Assembly (NCBI RefSeq): GCF_009712035.1
Contig: NZ_VILB01000029.1
Location: 1-34,487 of the forward strand
DNA length: 34,487 bases
Direction: 5' to 3'
Source: Anabaena sp. UHCC 0187
GTDB lineage: Bacteria > Cyanobacteriota > Cyanobacteriia > Cyanobacteriales > Nostocaceae
Under the pieces are notes generated by a model that was given only the letters and a program-made list of their open reading frames with translations, searched no databases and was not told the origin of the DNA. This document shows positions 1-9,305 of this stretch, piece after piece. Position 1 is the first letter of the stretch, and every line of letters starts with the position of its first letter. Both the position numbers and the translations under genes were made by a program.

Positions 1-96
1 GGTTATAATATCTTTAACAATTTCCATTTTAGCTTCAGCAGAATGTTTATCATCATATTGTCCAATAATAGATAGTTCATTAATTAAAAATTGCAT
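1..96 (-). CDS. Partial third gene of the DUF262/ATPase operon, unknown function
   Basis: An ATG at 96-94 opens a frame that stays open to the window edge, giving only the N-terminal 32 residues (begins MQFLINELSIIGQYDDKHSA). It starts one base after the stop codon of the ATPase gene, so it is almost certainly the next gene of the same transcript and may be translationally coupled. I do not recognise the family. The visible part is a hydrophilic, mixed-charge segment with no signal peptide. Its value lies in context: it is the third member of a DUF262-ATPase operon and would be needed to identify the system. Confidence 0.6.
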   Translation of the reverse strand, partial: MQFLINELSIIGQYDDKHSAEAKMEIVKDIIT

Positions 97-97
97 C

Positions 98-1192
98 TTA
101 TATTAACTCCATCTCTGTTTTGTAAAATTCATCAAAAAATCCATCAGGTAATGAACTAAAATTACCATCATCATGTATTTTTGGTATGAAGATATTAATT
201 ATTTCTTGTTGCATATTTTCATTTCTTTCAAAATAATATAATTGTACATTATTATAAGAAAGTTTATTTCTCTTAACAGCGATTCTGATACCATTTAAAA
301 GATTTTCACTGTGACTTTCAATAATTACTTGAATACCATGATTTGCCGCTAAAGCTAATAATTGACCTAATTTAGATTGTCCTTGAGGGTGAAGATGAGA
401 TTCAGGATTTTCAATAATTATCATTGTTCCTGGTTTAGAGGAAAGAATTGCTGTTAAAATAGGTAAAGAATAAGTGACACCAAAACCTACATTAAAAGGA
501 GAATATTCTTTACTAACTCCAAAAGAATATTTTATTGTCATTGCGTTGGCAACTTGTCTTACATTAATATTAATATTAGGACTAATTTCTCCCATCCAAG
601 CATCAACTTGATCTTTTAAACTTTGAGATTTACTGCGAGGATGACTTAATTCACTAATGGGAATATCTTGATTACCAAATTCATGTAAAAAATGTGCTGT
701 ATATTCTCCTTTTTTACCTATTTGTCTATGTTTAACAACATCATTTTCAGACAAAGGATAAGATTCCTCTGGTGTAATTCTTTCAGCACCTAAATAGTGA
801 AAATCATCATTAAATAAATTAAATTGATTAATTGTAGAATCATTACCTATTAATGCAATCCGTAGCACATTACTACTAGGAGAATCATAATCAAAACTCC
901 AGTTTGTTCGCTGACCATTTTCCCAAACAATTCCGAAGCTAATTAATTCTTCTTCTTCGGCATTTTCATATAGAACATCTTCAGCAGTACCTATATAAGC
1001 TATTTGATTATCAAGTTTTAGTCCATTACTAGGTAAATAATCTGTTATATAAGCATAGCGTAATAAAATCAATGGTTGAATTACAGAAGATTTACCTGTA
1101 CTATTTAAACCAGAAATTAAGGTAAGAGGTTTAAAATCAAAATTTTCATCTGCAAATGCTTTGAAGTTTTTTAAATGTAATTTTTTAATCAT
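98..1192 (-). CDS. AAA/ABC-type ATPase (AAA_15/AAA_21, DUF3696-like C-terminus)
   Basis: A 364-residue soluble ATPase of the SMC/RecF/OLD-like group. Residues 28-36 form the Walker A loop (GLNSTGKSS). An ABC-signature-like stretch (NVGFGVTYSLPIL) lies near residue 240, Walker B with catalytic acid follows (TMIIIENPESHLHPQGQ), and an H-loop-like motif comes later (VIIESHSENL). The C-terminal end, with DGFFDEF, fits the DUF3696 tail of this family. I see no TOPRIM or HNH nuclease domain, so unlike OLD or GajA proteins the nuclease activity, if any, must come from a partner. Its start codon overlaps the stop of the DUF262 gene by four bases, indicating translational coupling. Family knowledge links such ATPases to phage defence; that role here is inferred from context. 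Confidence 0.85.
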   Translation of the reverse strand: MIKKLHLKNFKAFADENFDFKPLTLISGLNSTGKSSVIQPLILLRYAYITDYLPSNGLKLDNQIAYIGTAEDVLYENAEEEELISFGIVWENGQRTNWSFDYDSPSSNVLRIALIGNDSTINQFNLFNDDFHYLGAERITPEESYPLSENDVVKHRQIGKKGEYTAHFLHEFGNQDIPISELSHPRSKSQSLKDQVDAWMGEISPNININVRQVANAMTIKYSFGVSKEYSPFNVGFGVTYSLPILTAILSSKPGTMIIIENPESHLHPQGQSKLGQLLALAANHGIQVIIESHSENLLNGIRIAVKRNKLSYNNVQLYYFERNENMQQEIINIFIPKIHDDGNFSSLPDGFFDEFYKTEMELI

Positions 1193-2322
1193 GACAATAT
1201 ACTTTGAATAATTCCTTGAATATGCTTAAATCGCTCTTTGACGATGTTAGCATCTCCAGCACTTTTATATAAAATACTATCAAATTTACCATCTTTTTGA
1301 TCTTTTAATAAAACTTTACGTAAATCTTCTTTTCTTTGTTTAAGAATATTGATTTCCTGATCATTTAATTTAGCCAGGTTAATTGACCATGCTTCCAGTA
1401 GTGCTTTATTAATAGGATATCTTGGTTTCTCTCTTGGCTTCCTAAATGCTTGTTCCTCAAATAAATCATGAGCAAGATTCATAATTAACAAAAATCTTTG
1501 TTTGATTTCCTCTATTTCAGAATCATCCATTTGATTCATTTCGGTCATTTTTTTATCTAAAAAATAATCATAATCTTTAAAATCCAGGTTATCTATATTA
1601 CTCGTCATTAAAGATAAAACTTTTAAAATACATTCTTGGTCAATCATCCTTTTATCTTTAATTCCCTTATCTGTTGTTTTTTTAAATTCTGGAGATTCAG
1701 AAAGTTCTTTTAATAAGGTTGTGATTTTATTTTGAGAGTTTTTAGCATAGCGCATTTCCTGAGCAGAAAGTGCAGTTCCTCCTTGATTAATCCGTTTAAA
1801 TATATTAAAACTAATCTCAGATGATGTTCCTCTTAAAATTAAATATACTGTTAATTTTGTTTCTTTAATTCTTCTTTTCCACCGAGGTGTCAGTTCTTGA
1901 TAATTTTTACCATGTAAATCAGTGAAAAAATCTAATCCATCCAGAGTAAAACTTTGATCAGTGACAAATTCCTTAAATGTTGTTATTCTTTGTATTCCAT
2001 CTATGACTAACCATTGATCATCATTAGTTGCATCAATATAAAAAGCAGGTAAAGGAATTTGCACTAAAAGAGATTCAATTAACCGACTTTTTGCAGTTTT
2101 AGTCCAAATACCTTCTTTTCGTTGAAATTCAGGTGCGATCATGCGATGATTATTTAATCTGTCCAGAATTTGCTGTACGGTCATGATATTAGTTCCCATA
2201 CTAATGCAAGTCGGATCAAATCCTTGAGAAAGCGTTGGTTCTTCTTCTTCCTCTTCAATATCTATATCTTCTTCATATTCTGAATTAATATTATTTGGTT
2301 CTAAATTGCTTGCTTCCGTCAT
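1189..2322 (-). CDS. DUF262 domain protein (GmrS/ParB-like fold)
   Basis: A 377-residue protein with the DUF262 hallmarks: PEFQRKEGIW at 64-73, the nucleotide-site motif DGIQR at 108-112 (usual form DGQQR), and the FxxINxGGxxL segment at 174-185. In GmrSD-type type IV restriction enzymes DUF262 is the NTP-binding half and is fused or paired with a DUF1524 HNH nuclease. Here no HNH motif is present in the C-terminal half, so this is a stand-alone DUF262 protein. Residues 15-29 are an acidic run (mostly Glu/Asp), suggesting a disordered tail. It is the first gene of the minus-strand operon, overlapping the ATPase gene by four bases. Function as sensor or nuclease partner in defence is inferred. 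Confidence 0.85.
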   Translation of the reverse strand: MTEASNLEPNNINSEYEEDIDIEEEEEEPTLSQGFDPTCISMGTNIMTVQQILDRLNNHRMIAPEFQRKEGIWTKTAKSRLIESLLVQIPLPAFYIDATNDDQWLVIDGIQRITTFKEFVTDQSFTLDGLDFFTDLHGKNYQELTPRWKRRIKETKLTVYLILRGTSSEISFNIFKRINQGGTALSAQEMRYAKNSQNKITTLLKELSESPEFKKTTDKGIKDKRMIDQECILKVLSLMTSNIDNLDFKDYDYFLDKKMTEMNQMDDSEIEEIKQRFLLIMNLAHDLFEEQAFRKPREKPRYPINKALLEAWSINLAKLNDQEINILKQRKEDLRKVLLKDQKDGKFDSILYKSAGDANIVKERFKHIQGIIQSILS

Positions 2323-2556
2323 AGTATATACTTTGAATTTTGATTAACTTATTTTAAGTATGAAAAAAATGATCGTGTCGGTATTCCTTTCTATTATAAT
2401 CTAAATCAATTAAACTTTTATTTCCTGTCTAACTAACTTAGCTCAACCCCAATCTTTCAGGTTATGATTAAGTCGGAGATGAGAATGAACTATAGCGGTA
2501 CATCTGAGGAATAAGTTAACACATACTCACACATAAACTTAAGTAAAATCAATTAT

Positions 2557-3399
2557 ATGCCACTTAAAGTCACCTTTTTCCAAGCTGGATATTGTACCCA
2601 TCCTGAAGCCATAGTCGTGCAAGATGGACGCTGGAAAACCACTAATTTCCCCTCTCTCTTTGCCCTAATTTCACACCCCCAAATAGGTGCTATTTTATTT
2701 GATACCGGCTATTCAGACCGCTTTTTTCAAGAAACAAGTTCTTTCCCCTTTCGTCTTTATGCCTTCACAACTCCTGTATATTTTCAACCAGAAGATAGTG
2801 CCGTTTATCAATTACAAAAAGCAGGAATTGAACCAGAAGCCGTTAAATATATTATTATTTCTCACTTTCATGCCGATCATATTGGAGGTTTAAAAGACTT
2901 TCCTAATGCTCAATTTATCTGTTTTAATTCCGCATATCAAGCTGTTAAATATCGCCGAGGAATTAACGCCCTTAAAGCGGGTTTTTTATCAGGTTTGCTA
3001 CCTTCAGATTTTGAACAACGGGTCATATTTGTAGAGGATAAACAAACAGTATCATTACTTCCTAAATATGCTCCCTTTACCACTGGTTTTGACTTATTAG
3101 GAGATGGTAGCCTTATCGCTGTTGAATTACCAGGTCATGCCACAGGTCAATTAGGTTTGTTTTTCATTGATGCTGATCATCATAATTATTTTCTCATTGC
3201 TGATGCTTGTTGGCTAAGTCGTGCTTATCAGGAGTTTATAAAACCTCATCCTATTACTAATTTGATATTTGCTAATAAGCAAGAATATGTGGATACACTT
3301 TCTAAAATTCATCAATTACACAAATTGAATCCAGAACTGAAAATAATTCCTACTCATTGTTTAAAAACTTGGCAAGAACTAGAAAAAAACTATCTTTAA
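2557..3399 (+). CDS. MBL-fold metallo-hydrolase (lactonase/glyoxalase-II-like)
   Basis: A 280-residue metallo-beta-lactamase-fold hydrolase. The metal motif HxHxDH is at 103-108 (SHFHADHIGG), with further ligands His194 (LPGHATGQ), Asp216 (IADACW) and probably His267 (PTHC), so both metal sites look complete. No signal peptide is visible, so it should be cytoplasmic. The arrangement resembles N-acyl homoserine lactonases and related esterases, but substrate cannot be read from sequence. It heads a same-strand run with a phosphatase-like gene 29 bases downstream and then an adenylate-forming enzyme and an acyltransferase, suggesting it hydrolyses a thioester, ester or lactone in that pathway. 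The ATG at 2557 is the first in frame and gives the normal family N-terminus. Confidence 0.85.
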   Translation: MPLKVTFFQAGYCTHPEAIVVQDGRWKTTNFPSLFALISHPQIGAILFDTGYSDRFFQETSSFPFRLYAFTTPVYFQPEDSAVYQLQKAGIEPEAVKYIIISHFHADHIGGLKDFPNAQFICFNSAYQAVKYRRGINALKAGFLSGLLPSDFEQRVIFVEDKQTVSLLPKYAPFTTGFDLLGDGSLIAVELPGHATGQLGLFFIDADHHNYFLIADACWLSRAYQEFIKPHPITNLIFANKQEYVDTLSKIHQLHKLNPELKIIPTHCLKTWQELEKNYL

Positions 3400-3428
3400 C
3401 TATTCATAATACAACTTCAAAAAATTGC

Positions 3429-3749
3429 ATGAAGAAATTATTATTTATCTGTAGTCAAAACCGATTACGCAGTCCTACTGCGGAAGTAGTATTTTCTGAA
3501 TATGAAGGATTAGAAACAGAATCAGCAGGACTAAATAGAAGTGCAGAAATTCCTTTATCTATTGAAGTGATTCAGTGGGCAGATTTGATTTTTGTGATGG
3601 AAAAACAACATCTACATAAACTTTCTCAAAAATTTAAACCTTACCTCAAAAATAAGAAAGTAATTTGCTTAGATATTCCTGATGATTATGACTATATGCA
3701 ACCTGAGTTGGTAGAATTATTAAAGAAGAAAGTTCTTCCTTTTTGTTAA
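3429..3749 (+). CDS. Low-molecular-weight protein tyrosine phosphatase-like protein
   Basis: A 106-residue protein with the phosphatase P-loop CX5RS near its N-terminus (Cys8, Arg14, Ser15 in ICSQNRLRSPTAE) and an acidic DIPDDYDYM segment near residue 78 that could supply the general acid. This fits the short COG4551-like group rather than the 150-residue classical LMW-PTPs. The frame extends upstream to an ATG at 3357, inside the previous gene, but the ATG at 3429 places the beta-strand KKLLFIC directly before the P-loop as in the family, so I chose it. It sits 29 bases after the MBL gene and 31 bases before the adenylate-forming enzyme. Whether it acts on phosphoprotein or a small phospho-metabolite is unknown. 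Confidence 0.8.
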   Translation: MKKLLFICSQNRLRSPTAEVVFSEYEGLETESAGLNRSAEIPLSIEVIQWADLIFVMEKQHLHKLSQKFKPYLKNKKVICLDIPDDYDYMQPELVELLKKKVLPFC

Positions 3750-3780
3750 ACAACATTATTAAAGCTAAATTTTCAATATT

Positions 3781-5109
3781 ATGCCAGGTATCTCAACTAT
3801 TCTGTGGAATTATCTATTAACAAAGTATGCGAGACGATTCAATAGCCGTGAGGAACTGTTATCATGGCAACATCGAAAAGTTTGTAATTTCCTCAAAATT
3901 ATTCTCCCCAAATCTCAATTTTATCGAGAGTATTATCACGGTCTAAATATTCAGGAATGGCAACATTTTTCGATCATTGATAAATCAGTCATGATGGCTA
4001 ATTTCGACCAGTTAAATACAGTAGGAATCAAAAAAACAGAGGCGTTTACACTGGCAATAACAGCCGAAAAAACCCGCAATTTTAGCTCAACTCTTGATGG
4101 TTACACCGTTGGACTTTCTTCGGGAACTAGTGGCAATAGAGGGTTATTTATAGTTAGTAAAAAAGAACAACAAACATGGGCAGGGACTATTTTAGCTAAA
4201 ACCTTACCTCAGTTTATTCTTACTCCCCAAATAATTGCATTTTTTCTGAGAGCAAATAGCAATCTTTACGAAACAGTTAAAGGACAACGGATTCAATTTG
4301 AGTATTTCGATTTATTCAGTTCTGTTACCAGTCATATTGAGCGTTTAAACCAGATTGCACCAACTATTTTAGTAGCACCTCCTTCCATGTTGCGGCTGTT
4401 AGCTGATGCTCAATTGAGAGGTGATTTAAACATTACACCAATTAAAATTATTTCTGTTGCGGAAGTATTAGATCCTTTAGATGAAATATATATTCGTAAC
4501 TGTTTTGGACAAAAAATTCATCAACTCTATCAATGTACAGAAGGGTTTTTAGCGAGTACCTGTGAACATGGAACTTTGCATCTTAATGAAGATATTTTAG
4601 TGATTCAAAAAGATTATCTTGATGAAAATGCGGGTAAATTTATGCCCATAATCACAGATTTTAACCGCACAACTCAACCGATTATTCGTTACCGTCTTGA
4701 TGATATTTTAACAGAACGTCAAACCCCTTGCCCCTGTGGTTCAGTTTTGACAGCATTGGAGAGTATTGAGGGACGAAGAGATGATATATTTTGGTTGCCA
4801 AATCAAACAGGAGAAAGATTAATTCCTGTATTTCCTGATTTTATCCGTCGAGCAATTATGATGGCTTCGGAAGATATTCAGGAATATCGAGCAGTGCAAA
4901 AAAGTCCTAATTTGATGGAAATTTCTTTAAAAGTAACCACAGAATTACAGGGATTAATAAAGGATAAAGTTGATAAATCTTTGATAGATTTATTTGAGCA
5001 ATCATATTGTCAAATTCCGCATATTCATTACCAAGAATATAAAATAAGAACGGAACACCATCAAAAACTCAGACGTATTCAACGAGACTTTACACCAGAT
5101 TTAAAATGA
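3781..5109 (+). CDS. Adenylate-forming enzyme, PaaK / F390-synthetase-related
   Basis: A 442-residue member of the ANL superfamily in the phenylacetate-CoA ligase/coenzyme F390 synthetase-like branch. The phosphate-binding loop SSGTSGNRG is at 113-121, the aromatic-acid-site motif YQCTEG at 249-254, the ribose-binding Asp motif YRLDD at 303-307, a CPCG cysteine pair at 316-319 and the hinge motif GRRDD at 330-334. By family it should activate a carboxylate as an acyl-adenylate and pass it to CoA, an amine or another acceptor; the substrate is unknown. Its stop overlaps the start of the GNAT gene by four bases (ATGA), a sign that the two proteins are made together and that the GNAT protein may use the activated acyl group. 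Confidence 0.8.
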   Translation: MPGISTILWNYLLTKYARRFNSREELLSWQHRKVCNFLKIILPKSQFYREYYHGLNIQEWQHFSIIDKSVMMANFDQLNTVGIKKTEAFTLAITAEKTRNFSSTLDGYTVGLSSGTSGNRGLFIVSKKEQQTWAGTILAKTLPQFILTPQIIAFFLRANSNLYETVKGQRIQFEYFDLFSSVTSHIERLNQIAPTILVAPPSMLRLLADAQLRGDLNITPIKIISVAEVLDPLDEIYIRNCFGQKIHQLYQCTEGFLASTCEHGTLHLNEDILVIQKDYLDENAGKFMPIITDFNRTTQPIIRYRLDDILTERQTPCPCGSVLTALESIEGRRDDIFWLPNQTGERLIPVFPDFIRRAIMMASEDIQEYRAVQKSPNLMEISLKVTTELQGLIKDKVDKSLIDLFEQSYCQIPHIHYQEYKIRTEHHQKLRRIQRDFTPDLK

Positions 5110-6263
5110 TCACAAATCAAGTTAATCTTTACGATATTACAAATATTGATAGTCTTCCTTGGACTAATTCGGAAGTAGCAATATTGGCAAAAAATTACTG
5201 GCTACCGTTAATGAAAGCGGGTTCTTCTCAATTTATTAATAATGTCAATAGCCAACTTTTGGCAATAACTATTGATGATCTTGTTTTACCAATTACAGTC
5301 AATCATAAAGAATTAGAAAACTCCTATGTTTGTTCTCCCTATTCGCACTATATTACCTACTCCAAGGAAGAACTATATATATTAAAAAATCCGCTACTTG
5401 AGAAAGTTCTGAAAATCTTATTAAATTTAATGGGCATAGTTTTGAATTTCGGGAAAATTAATCAAGTTGTCATTGTCAATAACTGGTTATTTTCAACTAA
5501 TTTATATCCTGATTTATCTAAAAATCAAATTGCGGATATTACCTCTTATTTAAAAGAACGTTTCCCAACTCATACTATTATTTTTCGTTCAATTAATACT
5601 TTTATCAATGATGATTTATTTAAGGCTTTTCAATATAATAATTATCAAATGATTGCTAGTCGGCAAATTTACCTTTTTAACCCTAAAGATACATCAGCAA
5701 TGCGAACCAAAATGAGATGGCGTTTAAAGCAAGATTTTAACCTAATTGAAAAACAAGGTTATGAAGTAATTAATGGTGATCAAATTTGTGTAACAGAAGT
5801 CAAAAGACTTGTAGAATTATATAATGCTTTATATTTAGAAAAGTATTCCTACAATAATCCTCAATTCAATGAAAATTTCTTAGCATTAGCACTAAAAAAC
5901 AAAACTCTGCAAATTCAAGCTTTGCGAAAAGCTGGAAAAATTGATGGGGTGATTGGTTTTTATGAAATCAATGGAGTCATGACAACTCCGCTTTTAGGAT
6001 ATGATACCAGTTTGCCTCAAGCAGTTGGTTTATATCGAATGCTATCAGCGCAATTAACTATTGAAGCCACAAAACGGGGAATTATATTACATCAAAGTTC
6101 TGGTGCTGCTTCCTTTAAACGGTTGAGAGGATTTATTGATAATATTGAATATAGTGCTGTTTTTGATCAACATTTATCTTTTTCTCGTCAATTAGTATGG
6201 CGGTTATTAGGATTATTAGTCAATAAAATTGCTGTACCATTAATTAAGAAATACAAACTTTAA
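5106..6263 (+). CDS. GNAT-superfamily acyltransferase
   Basis: A 385-residue protein whose C-terminal half (about 190-360) looks like a GNAT acyltransferase fold: a basic entry segment (MRTKMRWRLKQDF near 199-211), a central strand-loop (KIDGVIGFYEINGVMTTPLLGYD, about 278-300) and a following helix-strand with HQSSGAASFKRLRG at 329-342. This conserved pattern resembles FemAB/GNAT-like proteins. The N-terminal 180 residues match nothing I recognise. It overlaps the adenylate-forming enzyme gene by four bases, arguing for a shared pathway in which an activated acyl group is transferred. A hydrophobic stretch at 365-380 might contact the membrane. Donor and acceptor are not predictable from sequence. 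Confidence 0.7.
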   Translation: MITNQVNLYDITNIDSLPWTNSEVAILAKNYWLPLMKAGSSQFINNVNSQLLAITIDDLVLPITVNHKELENSYVCSPYSHYITYSKEELYILKNPLLEKVLKILLNLMGIVLNFGKINQVVIVNNWLFSTNLYPDLSKNQIADITSYLKERFPTHTIIFRSINTFINDDLFKAFQYNNYQMIASRQIYLFNPKDTSAMRTKMRWRLKQDFNLIEKQGYEVINGDQICVTEVKRLVELYNALYLEKYSYNNPQFNENFLALALKNKTLQIQALRKAGKIDGVIGFYEINGVMTTPLLGYDTSLPQAVGLYRMLSAQLTIEATKRGIILHQSSGAASFKRLRGFIDNIEYSAVFDQHLSFSRQLVWRLLGLLVNKIAVPLIKKYKL

Positions 6264-6341
6264 CACTCTTCACTAAAAAAACACAGAAAATGTCAAATTA
6301 TTTAAATTTGCTTTAATCCCGAATTTAATTTTTAGGCTAGG

Positions 6342-6608
6342 ATGGAATCCGAATTGATCATTTCTATGCCTAAACAACCCCATGTTCAGTCCCGTAAATT
6401 CCCTAAATCTCTAACTTTTTCTTTGTATTTCTTAGGTGTTATAACTGTTTTGATAGCATCTTTTCCTTGGCTTTATGAGGTAAAGACAAAAGCCGGTATT
6501 AATATTTTACAGAATTACCATGCAGGATCTTTTTTAGAAAAACATACTCATGGACTTTTTAAATGTCAGTGGCTGTATCCCTACTATTGTGAACCTTCCC
6601 AAGATTAA
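6342..6608 (+). CDS. Small single-pass membrane protein, hypothetical
   Basis: An 88-residue protein with a basic N-terminal region, one membrane segment at about 24-45 (SLTFSLYFLGVITVLIASFP) and a C-terminal tail with two cysteines, two histidines and several aromatic residues (HTHGLFKCQWLYPYYC). It lies 78 bases after the GNAT gene on the same strand, so it may belong to that transcript or stand alone. A second ATG at 6366 would give an 80-residue version; the first has a purine-rich TAGGCTAGG directly in front but at poor spacing. I do not know a function; similar short tails exist in cyanobacterial hypothetical proteins. Confidence 0.6.
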   Translation: MESELIISMPKQPHVQSRKFPKSLTFSLYFLGVITVLIASFPWLYEVKTKAGINILQNYHAGSFLEKHTHGLFKCQWLYPYYCEPSQD

Positions 6609-6653: not shown

Positions 6654-9305
6654 TTAAGTCAATTTAGCTAGATAAGGACTGACATCAACAGCTAATTTTT
6701 GTCCTAATTTCAGTAATTGACGACATTCAATAGTTTCTGCTTCACTGTCAATACTGGTAATTCGTGGCAATATTTGACTGTGTAAACAACTCCAGTAAAG
6801 TTCTTGGGAATGGTTTAAATTAATGCCAAGATGTAATTTATGACCAACATCAATTAATCGTTCTAACCGTTGGATATCTGCATCTATTTTACTATTGGCA
6901 TCATAGAGTAATTGCCATAATAACTGGACTATCAATTGTTCTAGAATGTGATTACCATCGGGGATGTTTAATTGACAACGCAGATGTTTGGCTTCAGTGG
7001 AGATCGCTTCTAATTCTACAATATGATTCCAGCTTAATTGCAGTTCACTAATATCTTGTTCTAGGGATTTTAATGTTGTTAAACAACGATGCCCCAAAGC
7101 AATTTCCGCTGCTACCTGCAATTCTCGTGGTACTTGCAACTCATCCCGATGAAAGGCCATAATTACACCGTAATTATCACGATAGGCTTGAGTATATAAC
7201 TGGTCTAAACGTGCCAGTGTTTCCTGACTTAACAACCTCATAATGCGGTGACGTTCTTCCGCAAATAAAGTCTGTAAACTAAAGGCTTCATCGCCAAACA
7301 GTTGAGTCATCACTAAAATCACATGAGCGATACTAGCCTGCTGCAAGGCTGTAAACAGCTTTTCTTTAATTTGACTGTAGTTACGCCGTCCTTCAAACTG
7401 TTGAATACAGCAATGAAAATCCCAGCCAGCCAAATGCAAGACAGCAAAGATTAAATTTTCACTTTCCCAGGTAATATCTGACACTAGCTGCAAATGCCCC
7501 ACGGACATAGTTAAGGGACCCATGCTCTGCTTATGGTAGTCCAATTCATTAACAGTGTAACAATAAATACCCTGGTAGTGAGTAGAGGGGTGTTTATCTG
7601 TCTCTTGTTCAGGAACAGTATTTTTGTGATGATTAAATAGGGAAGTAATGGCGTAATGGGCAGCAACTTGTTTAAAGCCAATTTGGGCAGTTAGCACCAA
7701 TTGATGATATATCTCAGCCCCATGTTTAAACTCTTCCACATTACTAGGAGCTAAACCCAGGCGTTTAATAAAGCCCTGTTCTAACTGCACACCTGCCACA
7801 TCTCCGGCTAATTCTAAAGCACGGGAGGCATAGCGCAAAATTTGTGTTCCCTCCGGGCGGGAAATTTCTTCAAAAAACCAGCCGCAACTGGTGAACATCA
7901 GCAAAGAATGACGCTGCATTTCTAACAAGCGTAAAGCTTCTACCTGTTCAGCCGCTTGAAGTTTGCGAGTTTGATGGCGGGATAGAAACCGGTTAATATT
8001 AGCGGGAGTGCGATCTACCAAAATATGAACATATTCGTCCCGCGCTTGCCAAGGATCACGAAATAATGCACTACCATATTCTTCATAAACATCAATTAAC
8101 TGATCCCGCAGCCAATTTAAAGCATTCCGTAACGGCCGCCGCCATTTTTGATGCCACACGCCCCCTTCACCACCACAACCACAATCATCTTGCCATCTAT
8201 CCACACCATGAGCGCAACTCCAAGCCGTCACAGACTTGATTTTTACTTCCCAAGAGGGAGGATTTAAACTCAAATAATGGGCAAAATTGGTGACAGTCCA
8301 ACCATGACGGGGAAACTCACCAATAAAAGCATAGGCTAAAGTCTTTTCTGTGCCTTTTTTGTGATGTCCAAAGGTTTCCCCATCTGTAGCTACAGAAATT
8401 AATTGGGACTGACGATGATCCCCGCGAATAGCTGCCCCAATGCGTCCCGCAAAATGATGGGAATTGTAGACAACATCACTAAAACCCATATCCCGCGAAA
8501 TCGGACCATCATAGAAAAAGATATCAATATAGGCAGTTGATTTATTTGCAGACTCATCGCTATCTAAGTAACAGCGGTAAGGACGAGTGGGATCAATCTG
8601 ATTACCCCCCACCTCATGCCATTCACTATCAGGATGATCCTTTGTGGGGAAAGGACGACAACGCTGGGCTTGAGAAGGGGCTAAAATAATAAACTTAATC
8701 CCTTCTGCTACCAATGCTTCTAAGGTGGCATAATCTACGGCTGTTTCTGCCAACCACATTCCTTCAGGATCACGGCCAAAGCGAGAACGGAAATCTTCCT
8801 TACCCCAGCGAATTTGTGTATGTTTATCCCGTTCATTGGCTAGGGGGAGGATAATGTGATTATAGACTTGAGCGATCGCATTTCCATGACCATTTAAACG
8901 TTCGCAGCTTTTAGCATCAGCCTCCAAAATTCGCTGATAAACGGACCCATCGTAGCGTTCTAACCACGACATCAGCGTTGGCCCAATGTTAAAGCTCATG
9001 TATTCATAATTATTCACAATCTTCACAACTTCGCCTCGGTCATTGAAGACTCTAGCAAAGGCATTAGGACGGTAACACTCCCAATGAATACGCTCATTCC
9101 AGTCATGAAAAGGACTAGCACTGGGTTGACGTTCAATTGCATCAAGATAAGGATTTTCTCTAGGAGGTTGATAAAAATGACCATGAACCGTGACATAAAC
9201 ACCCTGTGCAGTTTTCAGGGGATCATGTTCAGGACTGGATTTAGCCTCTTGATCTAATGGTAATATTGAGCCAGAACTACTGGGTATTTCCGCAGTCGAA
9301 GTCAT
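6654..9305 (-). CDS. Glycoside hydrolase family 57 protein with DUF3536
   Basis: An 883-residue GH57 enzyme of the long DUF3536-containing type common in cyanobacteria. GH57 region 1 is seen as HGHFYQPPREN at 41-51, the nucleophile region as GMWLAETAVD with Glu187, and the acid/base region as ATDGETFGHH with Asp308. Together these argue for an active alpha-glucan hydrolase or glucanotransferase (amylase/amylopullulanase-like), acting on glycogen or similar alpha-glucan in the cytoplasm. No signal peptide is visible; the first 35 residues are Ser/Pro-rich and probably disordered. The C-terminal half (about 440-880) is helical and corresponds to DUF3536 and its extension. It stands alone on the minus strand. 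The exact glucan activity is not predictable. Confidence 0.9.
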   Translation of the reverse strand: MTSTAEIPSSSGSILPLDQEAKSSPEHDPLKTAQGVYVTVHGHFYQPPRENPYLDAIERQPSASPFHDWNERIHWECYRPNAFARVFNDRGEVVKIVNNYEYMSFNIGPTLMSWLERYDGSVYQRILEADAKSCERLNGHGNAIAQVYNHIILPLANERDKHTQIRWGKEDFRSRFGRDPEGMWLAETAVDYATLEALVAEGIKFIILAPSQAQRCRPFPTKDHPDSEWHEVGGNQIDPTRPYRCYLDSDESANKSTAYIDIFFYDGPISRDMGFSDVVYNSHHFAGRIGAAIRGDHRQSQLISVATDGETFGHHKKGTEKTLAYAFIGEFPRHGWTVTNFAHYLSLNPPSWEVKIKSVTAWSCAHGVDRWQDDCGCGGEGGVWHQKWRRPLRNALNWLRDQLIDVYEEYGSALFRDPWQARDEYVHILVDRTPANINRFLSRHQTRKLQAAEQVEALRLLEMQRHSLLMFTSCGWFFEEISRPEGTQILRYASRALELAGDVAGVQLEQGFIKRLGLAPSNVEEFKHGAEIYHQLVLTAQIGFKQVAAHYAITSLFNHHKNTVPEQETDKHPSTHYQGIYCYTVNELDYHKQSMGPLTMSVGHLQLVSDITWESENLIFAVLHLAGWDFHCCIQQFEGRRNYSQIKEKLFTALQQASIAHVILVMTQLFGDEAFSLQTLFAEERHRIMRLLSQETLARLDQLYTQAYRDNYGVIMAFHRDELQVPRELQVAAEIALGHRCLTTLKSLEQDISELQLSWNHIVELEAISTEAKHLRCQLNIPDGNHILEQLIVQLLWQLLYDANSKIDADIQRLERLIDVGHKLHLGINLNHSQELYWSCLHSQILPRITSIDSEAETIECRQLLKLGQKLAVDVSPYLAKLT

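Follow-up and report, generated by a model that had tools for sequence, protein, structure and literature searches.

Menshen is a known anti-phage system of three proteins, NsnA, NsnB and NsnC, encoded in the order A-B-C with tight spacing. Its effector step is poorly described in the literature passages available to us. Two sets of described systems share components with Menshen. In PARIS, parts of the literature describe an OLD-type ABC ATPase, AriA, that detects a phage protein and then activates a nuclease partner. In GmrSD, BrxU and SspE, a DUF262 domain is combined with a DUF1524 domain. We analyzed a 34,487-nt stretch of DNA from Anabaena sp. UHCC 0187 (NZ_VILB01000029.1; hereafter the window) that carries an operon at positions 1-2322 of its minus strand. 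By its sequence, this operon is a Menshen anti-phage operon, and it is predicted to protect against phage. It departs from the described system in two ways: it is cut within nsnC, and its parts come from two lineages. As assembled, the operon is a mosaic in which nsnA and nsnB up to about codon 305 are class I-like, whereas the nsnB tail and the start of nsnC match a class II operon of another family.

All three frames match PADLOC Menshen models, in agreement with an earlier sequence-only reading that had named Menshen as a candidate. NsnA (1189..2322, minus strand, 377 aa) matches the NsnA model at 4.7e-113, with PD-T4-2_A as the runner-up at 2.9e-33. Its sole Pfam family at E up to 1 is GmrSD_N (PF03235, 1.7e-21), the DUF262 domain, and a weak profile match links it to 7p9k, a DUF262 protein (7.1e-4). 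A motif scan found the nucleotide-pocket motif IDGIQR at residue 107. NsnA thus has the DUF262 domain and IDGxQR motif of GmrSD, BrxU and SspE, but it lacks a DUF1524 match among its Pfam hits at E up to 1, and the DHIYP motif was not found. The absence of a visible DUF1524 nuclease had been noted before. The same reading gave the DUF262 protein an acidic tail; the acidic stretch exists, but it lies at the N-terminus, as it does in 11 of 11 aligned NsnA proteins.

NsnB (98..1192, minus strand, 364 aa) is an OLD-type ABC ATPase with a DUF3696 tail. It matches the PADLOC NsnB model at 8.7e-117 (runner-up HEC-03B, 4.6e-37), and the whole protein covers the 345 model positions almost end to end. 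Pfam detected AAA_15 (4e-21), AAA_21 and DUF3696 (1.9e-9, residues 312-362), and the motif scan located a Walker A sequence (GLNSTGKS) at 28, ENPESHLHP at 261 and ESHS at 292. NsnB is related to AriA of PARIS, but the AriA match (1.6e-23) is far weaker than that to NsnB, and the position that AriB would occupy is taken by a variable NsnC and a DUF262 protein. The AriB TOPRIM partner did not appear among the listed matches of the nsnB neighbors, which are NsnA and NsnC in all three Menshen operons of this genome.

NsnC proteins have their N-terminal part in common, and their C-terminal parts sort into eight sequence groups (70 NsnC compared). The window retains the first 32 codons of nsnC (1..96, minus strand). 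The window starts at the very first base of its contig, hence the frame was truncated by assembly, as its earlier description as a cut third gene implied. These codons match the PADLOC NsnC model PDLC03898 at 4e-5, followed by PDLC03889, the class III model, at 3e-4. The closest complete relative found, the NsnC of locus L163, matches PADLOC NsnC at 1.5e-62 and is 81% identical to the window NsnC start over the 31 aa compared. We assign the window NsnC to class II on these 31 residues and the nsnB tail; beyond residue 32 the class is presumed. We could not locate the remainder of the gene in its own assembly by searches with a class II NsnC profile, with DNA and with PDLC03898, which returned the contig end itself plus chance-level DNA matches. 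The tight arrangement described earlier is exact: nsnA and nsnB share four bases (1189-1192), and nsnC begins at 96, one base (97) past the nsnB stop. This 4-bp overlap and 1-bp gap, with genes A-B-C on one strand, reproduce the order of a Menshen operon.

The mosaic structure became apparent from comparisons with relatives of the operon core. These relatives, all with class I NsnC, are from Anabaena sp. UHCC 0204 (L021, the same as L058), Dolichospermum sp. ST_sed8 (L022) and Nodularia (L059). From position 2322 down to 323, identity to them is mostly 88-100% per 100 bases, with dips to 80-86 and means of about 92-94%. It then falls to 67-74% at 322-223 and to 52-58% at 222-23. The class I relatives themselves remain alike through nsnC (L021/L022, 86-99%; L021/L059, 71-99%). 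A fourth relative, L020, is 94% identical over window 226-2333; decay has removed the end of its nsnB tail and most of its nsnC. The other parent is represented by L163, from another family, which carries a complete 283-aa class II nsnC and emerged from a search of 388 genomes of the order. L163 is 84% identical to the window over 4-290, and its identity per 58 bases is 41-81% upstream and 76-95% from 292 downward.

Breakpoint analysis placed the inferred recombination at 274..284. Up to the best breakpoint, the informative sites (813 in total) are 679:33 in favor of the Anabaena parent; beyond it, the ratio is 13:88. The maximum chi-square was 475, compared with at most 20.6 in 500 shuffles, and all 12 combinations of three core and four tail parents put the break at the same place (chi-square 213-504). 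When another tail parent took the place of L163, sites 3' of the break were less one-sided (31-43 vs 49-60). Two relatives used as queries gave values of 14 and 8. The inferred break falls inside the conserved ESHSxxLLNGIRIAV stretch of nsnB, or directly behind it, and ahead of the DUF3696 match, which is contained in the last ~58 codons of nsnB (98..274, minus strand), the segment of differing origin. Among 2415 operon pairs, 350 have an NsnB core identity of at least 0.65, and the three widest core-tail gaps within these are those of the window (core 0.86-0.92, tail 0.32-0.34). A second candidate, L089 from Calothrix sp. PCC 7103, has a core identity of 0.80 to class I L091, a tail identity of 0.62 and a class II NsnC. 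The mismatch in the window is the only sharp one here.

A mosaic of this kind could be an assembly chimera, in which the last 275 bp of the contig derive from other DNA, such as a contaminant, and the genuine operon would have the same end as those of its Dolichospermum relatives. Several facts speak for this and against a genuine exchange: the mosaic is known from a single draft assembly of 57 contigs, only 275 bp separate the junction from a contig end, and an identical junction is missing from the 15 other genomes of the genus. However, the frame is unbroken through a complete NsnB, and nsnB and nsnC are separated by one base, as in L163. The assembly, whose ratings are 99.99% completeness and 0 contamination, yielded no further copy of the contig end. 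The closest source among the 388 genomes is merely 84% identical, so no known contaminant fits. We consider a chimera improbable and favor the joint replacement of the nsnB tail and nsnC.

Because some of its relatives bear toxin domains, NsnC is the most probable effector. Three of the 70 NsnC contain Pfam toxin domains above the cut-off (YoeB twice, Gp49 once). The sequence-only reading had allowed that activity might come from the third protein, and this is now the best supported reading, given that DUF1524 was not found in NsnA, that the Pfam hits of three NsnB proteins include no TOPRIM family and that some relatives of NsnC carry toxin domains. Weak Pfam hits over the 70 NsnC were taken as noise; the best was Het-C, with 3 members at 0.0029. 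A CdiA-CT-like (5t87) toxin fold is a candidate for the C-terminal domain of class II NsnC. Like CdiA-CT, YoeB and Gp49, which belong to polymorphic or type II toxin-antitoxin toxins, NsnC places a variable C-terminal toxin domain on a shared N-terminal part. It differs from them in that its operon also encodes an ATPase and a DUF262 protein. Polymorphism of the effector is presumably not new: a 2025 paper by Li, Tan, Basu, Corbett and Zhang is said to bear Menshen domain polymorphism in its title, and we assume that it covers this subject. For class III NsnC (L006 and four kin) we considered a colicin-E3-like RNase and do not claim it; L006 had no PDB sequence match or Pfam hit, and no profile link was found.

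Joint replacement of the nsnB tail and nsnC suggests that the DUF3696 tail and NsnC may travel as one cassette. Across 69 operons, the partial correlation with the NsnC N-terminus was 0.50 for the NsnB tail after controlling for the core, compared with 0.26 for the core and 0.18 for NsnA, each after controlling for the tail. None of the three values was reached in 2000 permutations. That all three beat the permutations indicates that shared ancestry contributes too. We also found a second exchange inside nsnC, where L109 is 75-76% identical to L099, L085 and L087 before the last 80 residues and 38-45% identical within them. We propose, with belief and doubt in equal measure, that effectors are exchanged across cyanobacterial families as a cassette of the nsnB DUF3696 tail (an adaptor) and nsnC (a toxin carrier). 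Exchange would proceed by homologous recombination in the ESHSxxLNGIRxAV stretch, the inner nsnC junction would swap the toxin end alone, and the tail would act as a specificity lock that fits the sensor hub to the toxin. We did not meet a sharp joint exchange of this kind in the literature passages on Menshen; this does not establish that it is new to the literature. Should the proposal be true, the nsnB tail together with nsnC ought to be annotated in defence loci as a single exchangeable unit. The mosaic points to a testable contact between the NsnB tail and the NsnC N-terminus, and it suggests how one sensing core gets re-armed with another toxin.

Repeated toxin ends were seen in an Okeania metagenome-assembled genome (L136, 6444-8360). 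Its complete nsnC is followed by two near-identical copies of its last ~90 codons and by a third copy that enters unknown bases. These repeats are either tandem toxin-end cassettes or an assembly artefact.

Passages of the DUF262 literature and the analogy with PARIS lead us to a model in which the role of sensor or switch probably falls to NsnA, whose DUF262 part has an NTP-binding ParB/Srx-like fold, and NsnB is a hub that restrains NsnC, holding it through the C-terminal DUF3696 tail. NsnC would comprise a conserved N-terminal docking part and an exchangeable C-terminal toxin, probably of the RNase type. When phage is sensed, the toxin would be freed or activated, and the infected cell would stop translation. 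In the window, the docking tail and NsnC would have given way together to class II counterparts from a different cyanobacterial lineage. Taken as a whole, this account (Menshen with NsnA as sensor or switch, NsnB as hub, NsnC as effector and a replaced tail and NsnC) is the best explanation, and we hold it with good confidence.

Two other models make different use of the same proteins. Menshen could be a DNA-targeting, restriction-like system in which NsnA senses modified DNA, NsnB is the nuclease and NsnC is merely an accessory or regulator. A review describes the ATPase partner in Menshen as a predicted OLD nuclease and lists a TOPRIM-family domain for one component, and NsnA has the GmrSD-type nucleotide-pocket motif; both points favor this alternative. 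As the sequence-only reading had remarked, however, no TOPRIM nuclease is visible: Pfam gave no TOPRIM match at E up to 1 for NsnB from the window, L005 or L006. The 345-position PADLOC model accounts for nearly the whole of NsnB, and toxin domains occur in some NsnC relatives. A restriction-like mechanism is therefore unlikely in our judgment. Alternatively, an NsnC toxin with NsnA and NsnB as antidote could form a selfish addiction module and not an anti-phage system. By their Pfam names, YoeB and Gp49 are toxins of toxin-antitoxin pairs, and decayed copies of the operon exist, which again favors the rival. Yet the same review reports that Menshen phage resistance is abolished by mutation or deletion of the DUF262 gene, and addiction and defence are not mutually exclusive. 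We regard a purely selfish module as very unlikely and retain the model of an anti-phage system with NsnC as its effector.

The trio recurs well beyond the window. The same genome contains two more complete Menshen operons, in L005 (NsnC match at 4.6e-88) and in L006 (8.8e-102). A DNA similarity search followed by reading, which could overlook more distant copies, identified 18 Menshen loci in the genus, the window included, in 8 of 16 genomes counting its own; at least three are broken. Anabaena sp. UHCC 0204, Dolichospermum sp. ST_sed8 and LEGE 00240 are among the carriers. An NsnA-alignment scan of genome contigs confirmed at least 283 relatives, of which we used the best 80, including four genus loci already found. 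These 80 loci span Cyanobacteria, Chloroflexi, Magnetococcales, Planctomycetota, Bacteroidota, Firmicutes and others. NsnA also detected one relative in viral contigs (L138, which ends before any third gene) and 58 plasmid records, 15 of which cover 80% or more of the query at a single place.

The proposed partnership of nsnA and nsnB holds in these relatives. A same-strand NsnB frame follows NsnA in 77 of 81 (the best 80 plus the viral contig), 70 of them at full length. A script found 75 of these pairs, 7 of them short or cut (<330 aa), and L116 and L133, with a longer overlap, complete the count. A third frame of at least 120 aa is present in 67 of the 75 script-found A-B pairs. Removing the doubtful L101 and L131 left 65 NsnC; 15 from the genus brought the set to 80, and excluding 4 duplicates and 6 short or cut sequences gave the 70 analyzed here. 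One NsnC model by itself matches 63 of the 70 at 0.001. An A-B pair accompanied by a third gene is found in several phyla.

With 18 loci in 8 of 16 genomes and at least three broken, the genus is a good place for studying turnover. At a site where L005 has a class I operon, L030 (6285-7376) has a short nsnB and, behind it, a class II nsnC that is inverted and incomplete. L023 contains a 339-aa frame within nsnB that appears transposase-like by eye. In Calothrix sp. PCC 7103 (L089, 9251-10422), two extra nsnB pieces lie downstream of the complete Menshen operon and look like a decayed second copy.

The setting of the window operon had been described as AT-rich, free of HIP1 and accessory, and all three points hold. 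GC content is 28-33% across bases 1-6000 and 34-45% beyond, and the first of the window's 12 HIP1 sites is at 8872. Of the 15 other genomes of the genus, 5 match the DNA at 2400-6400, and these do so only partially, over stretches no longer than 315 bp; mostly unmatched in the genus, this DNA makes the setting look accessory. No orthologous empty site could be read from this region across the 15 genomes. The data give no support for a neighborhood of defence genes inside the window: the next four genes have no PADLOC hit at 1e-5. These adjoining genes (2557-6263) code for a metallo-beta-lactamase-fold protein, a low-molecular-weight phosphatase-like protein and two frames with no Pfam hit at 0.001, and they are mostly missing from genus relatives.

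Other Menshen operons have neighbors of their own. In L005 (15891-17832), about 6 kb separate the second Menshen operon of this genome from a type II methyltransferase and restriction enzyme (PADLOC 5.8e-151 for the enzyme). In five genus genomes (L024, L025, L026, L027 and L028), a class II Menshen operon lies directly before one common gene, which we take to be coaBC-like; this arrangement suggests that these class II operons occupy a fixed site.
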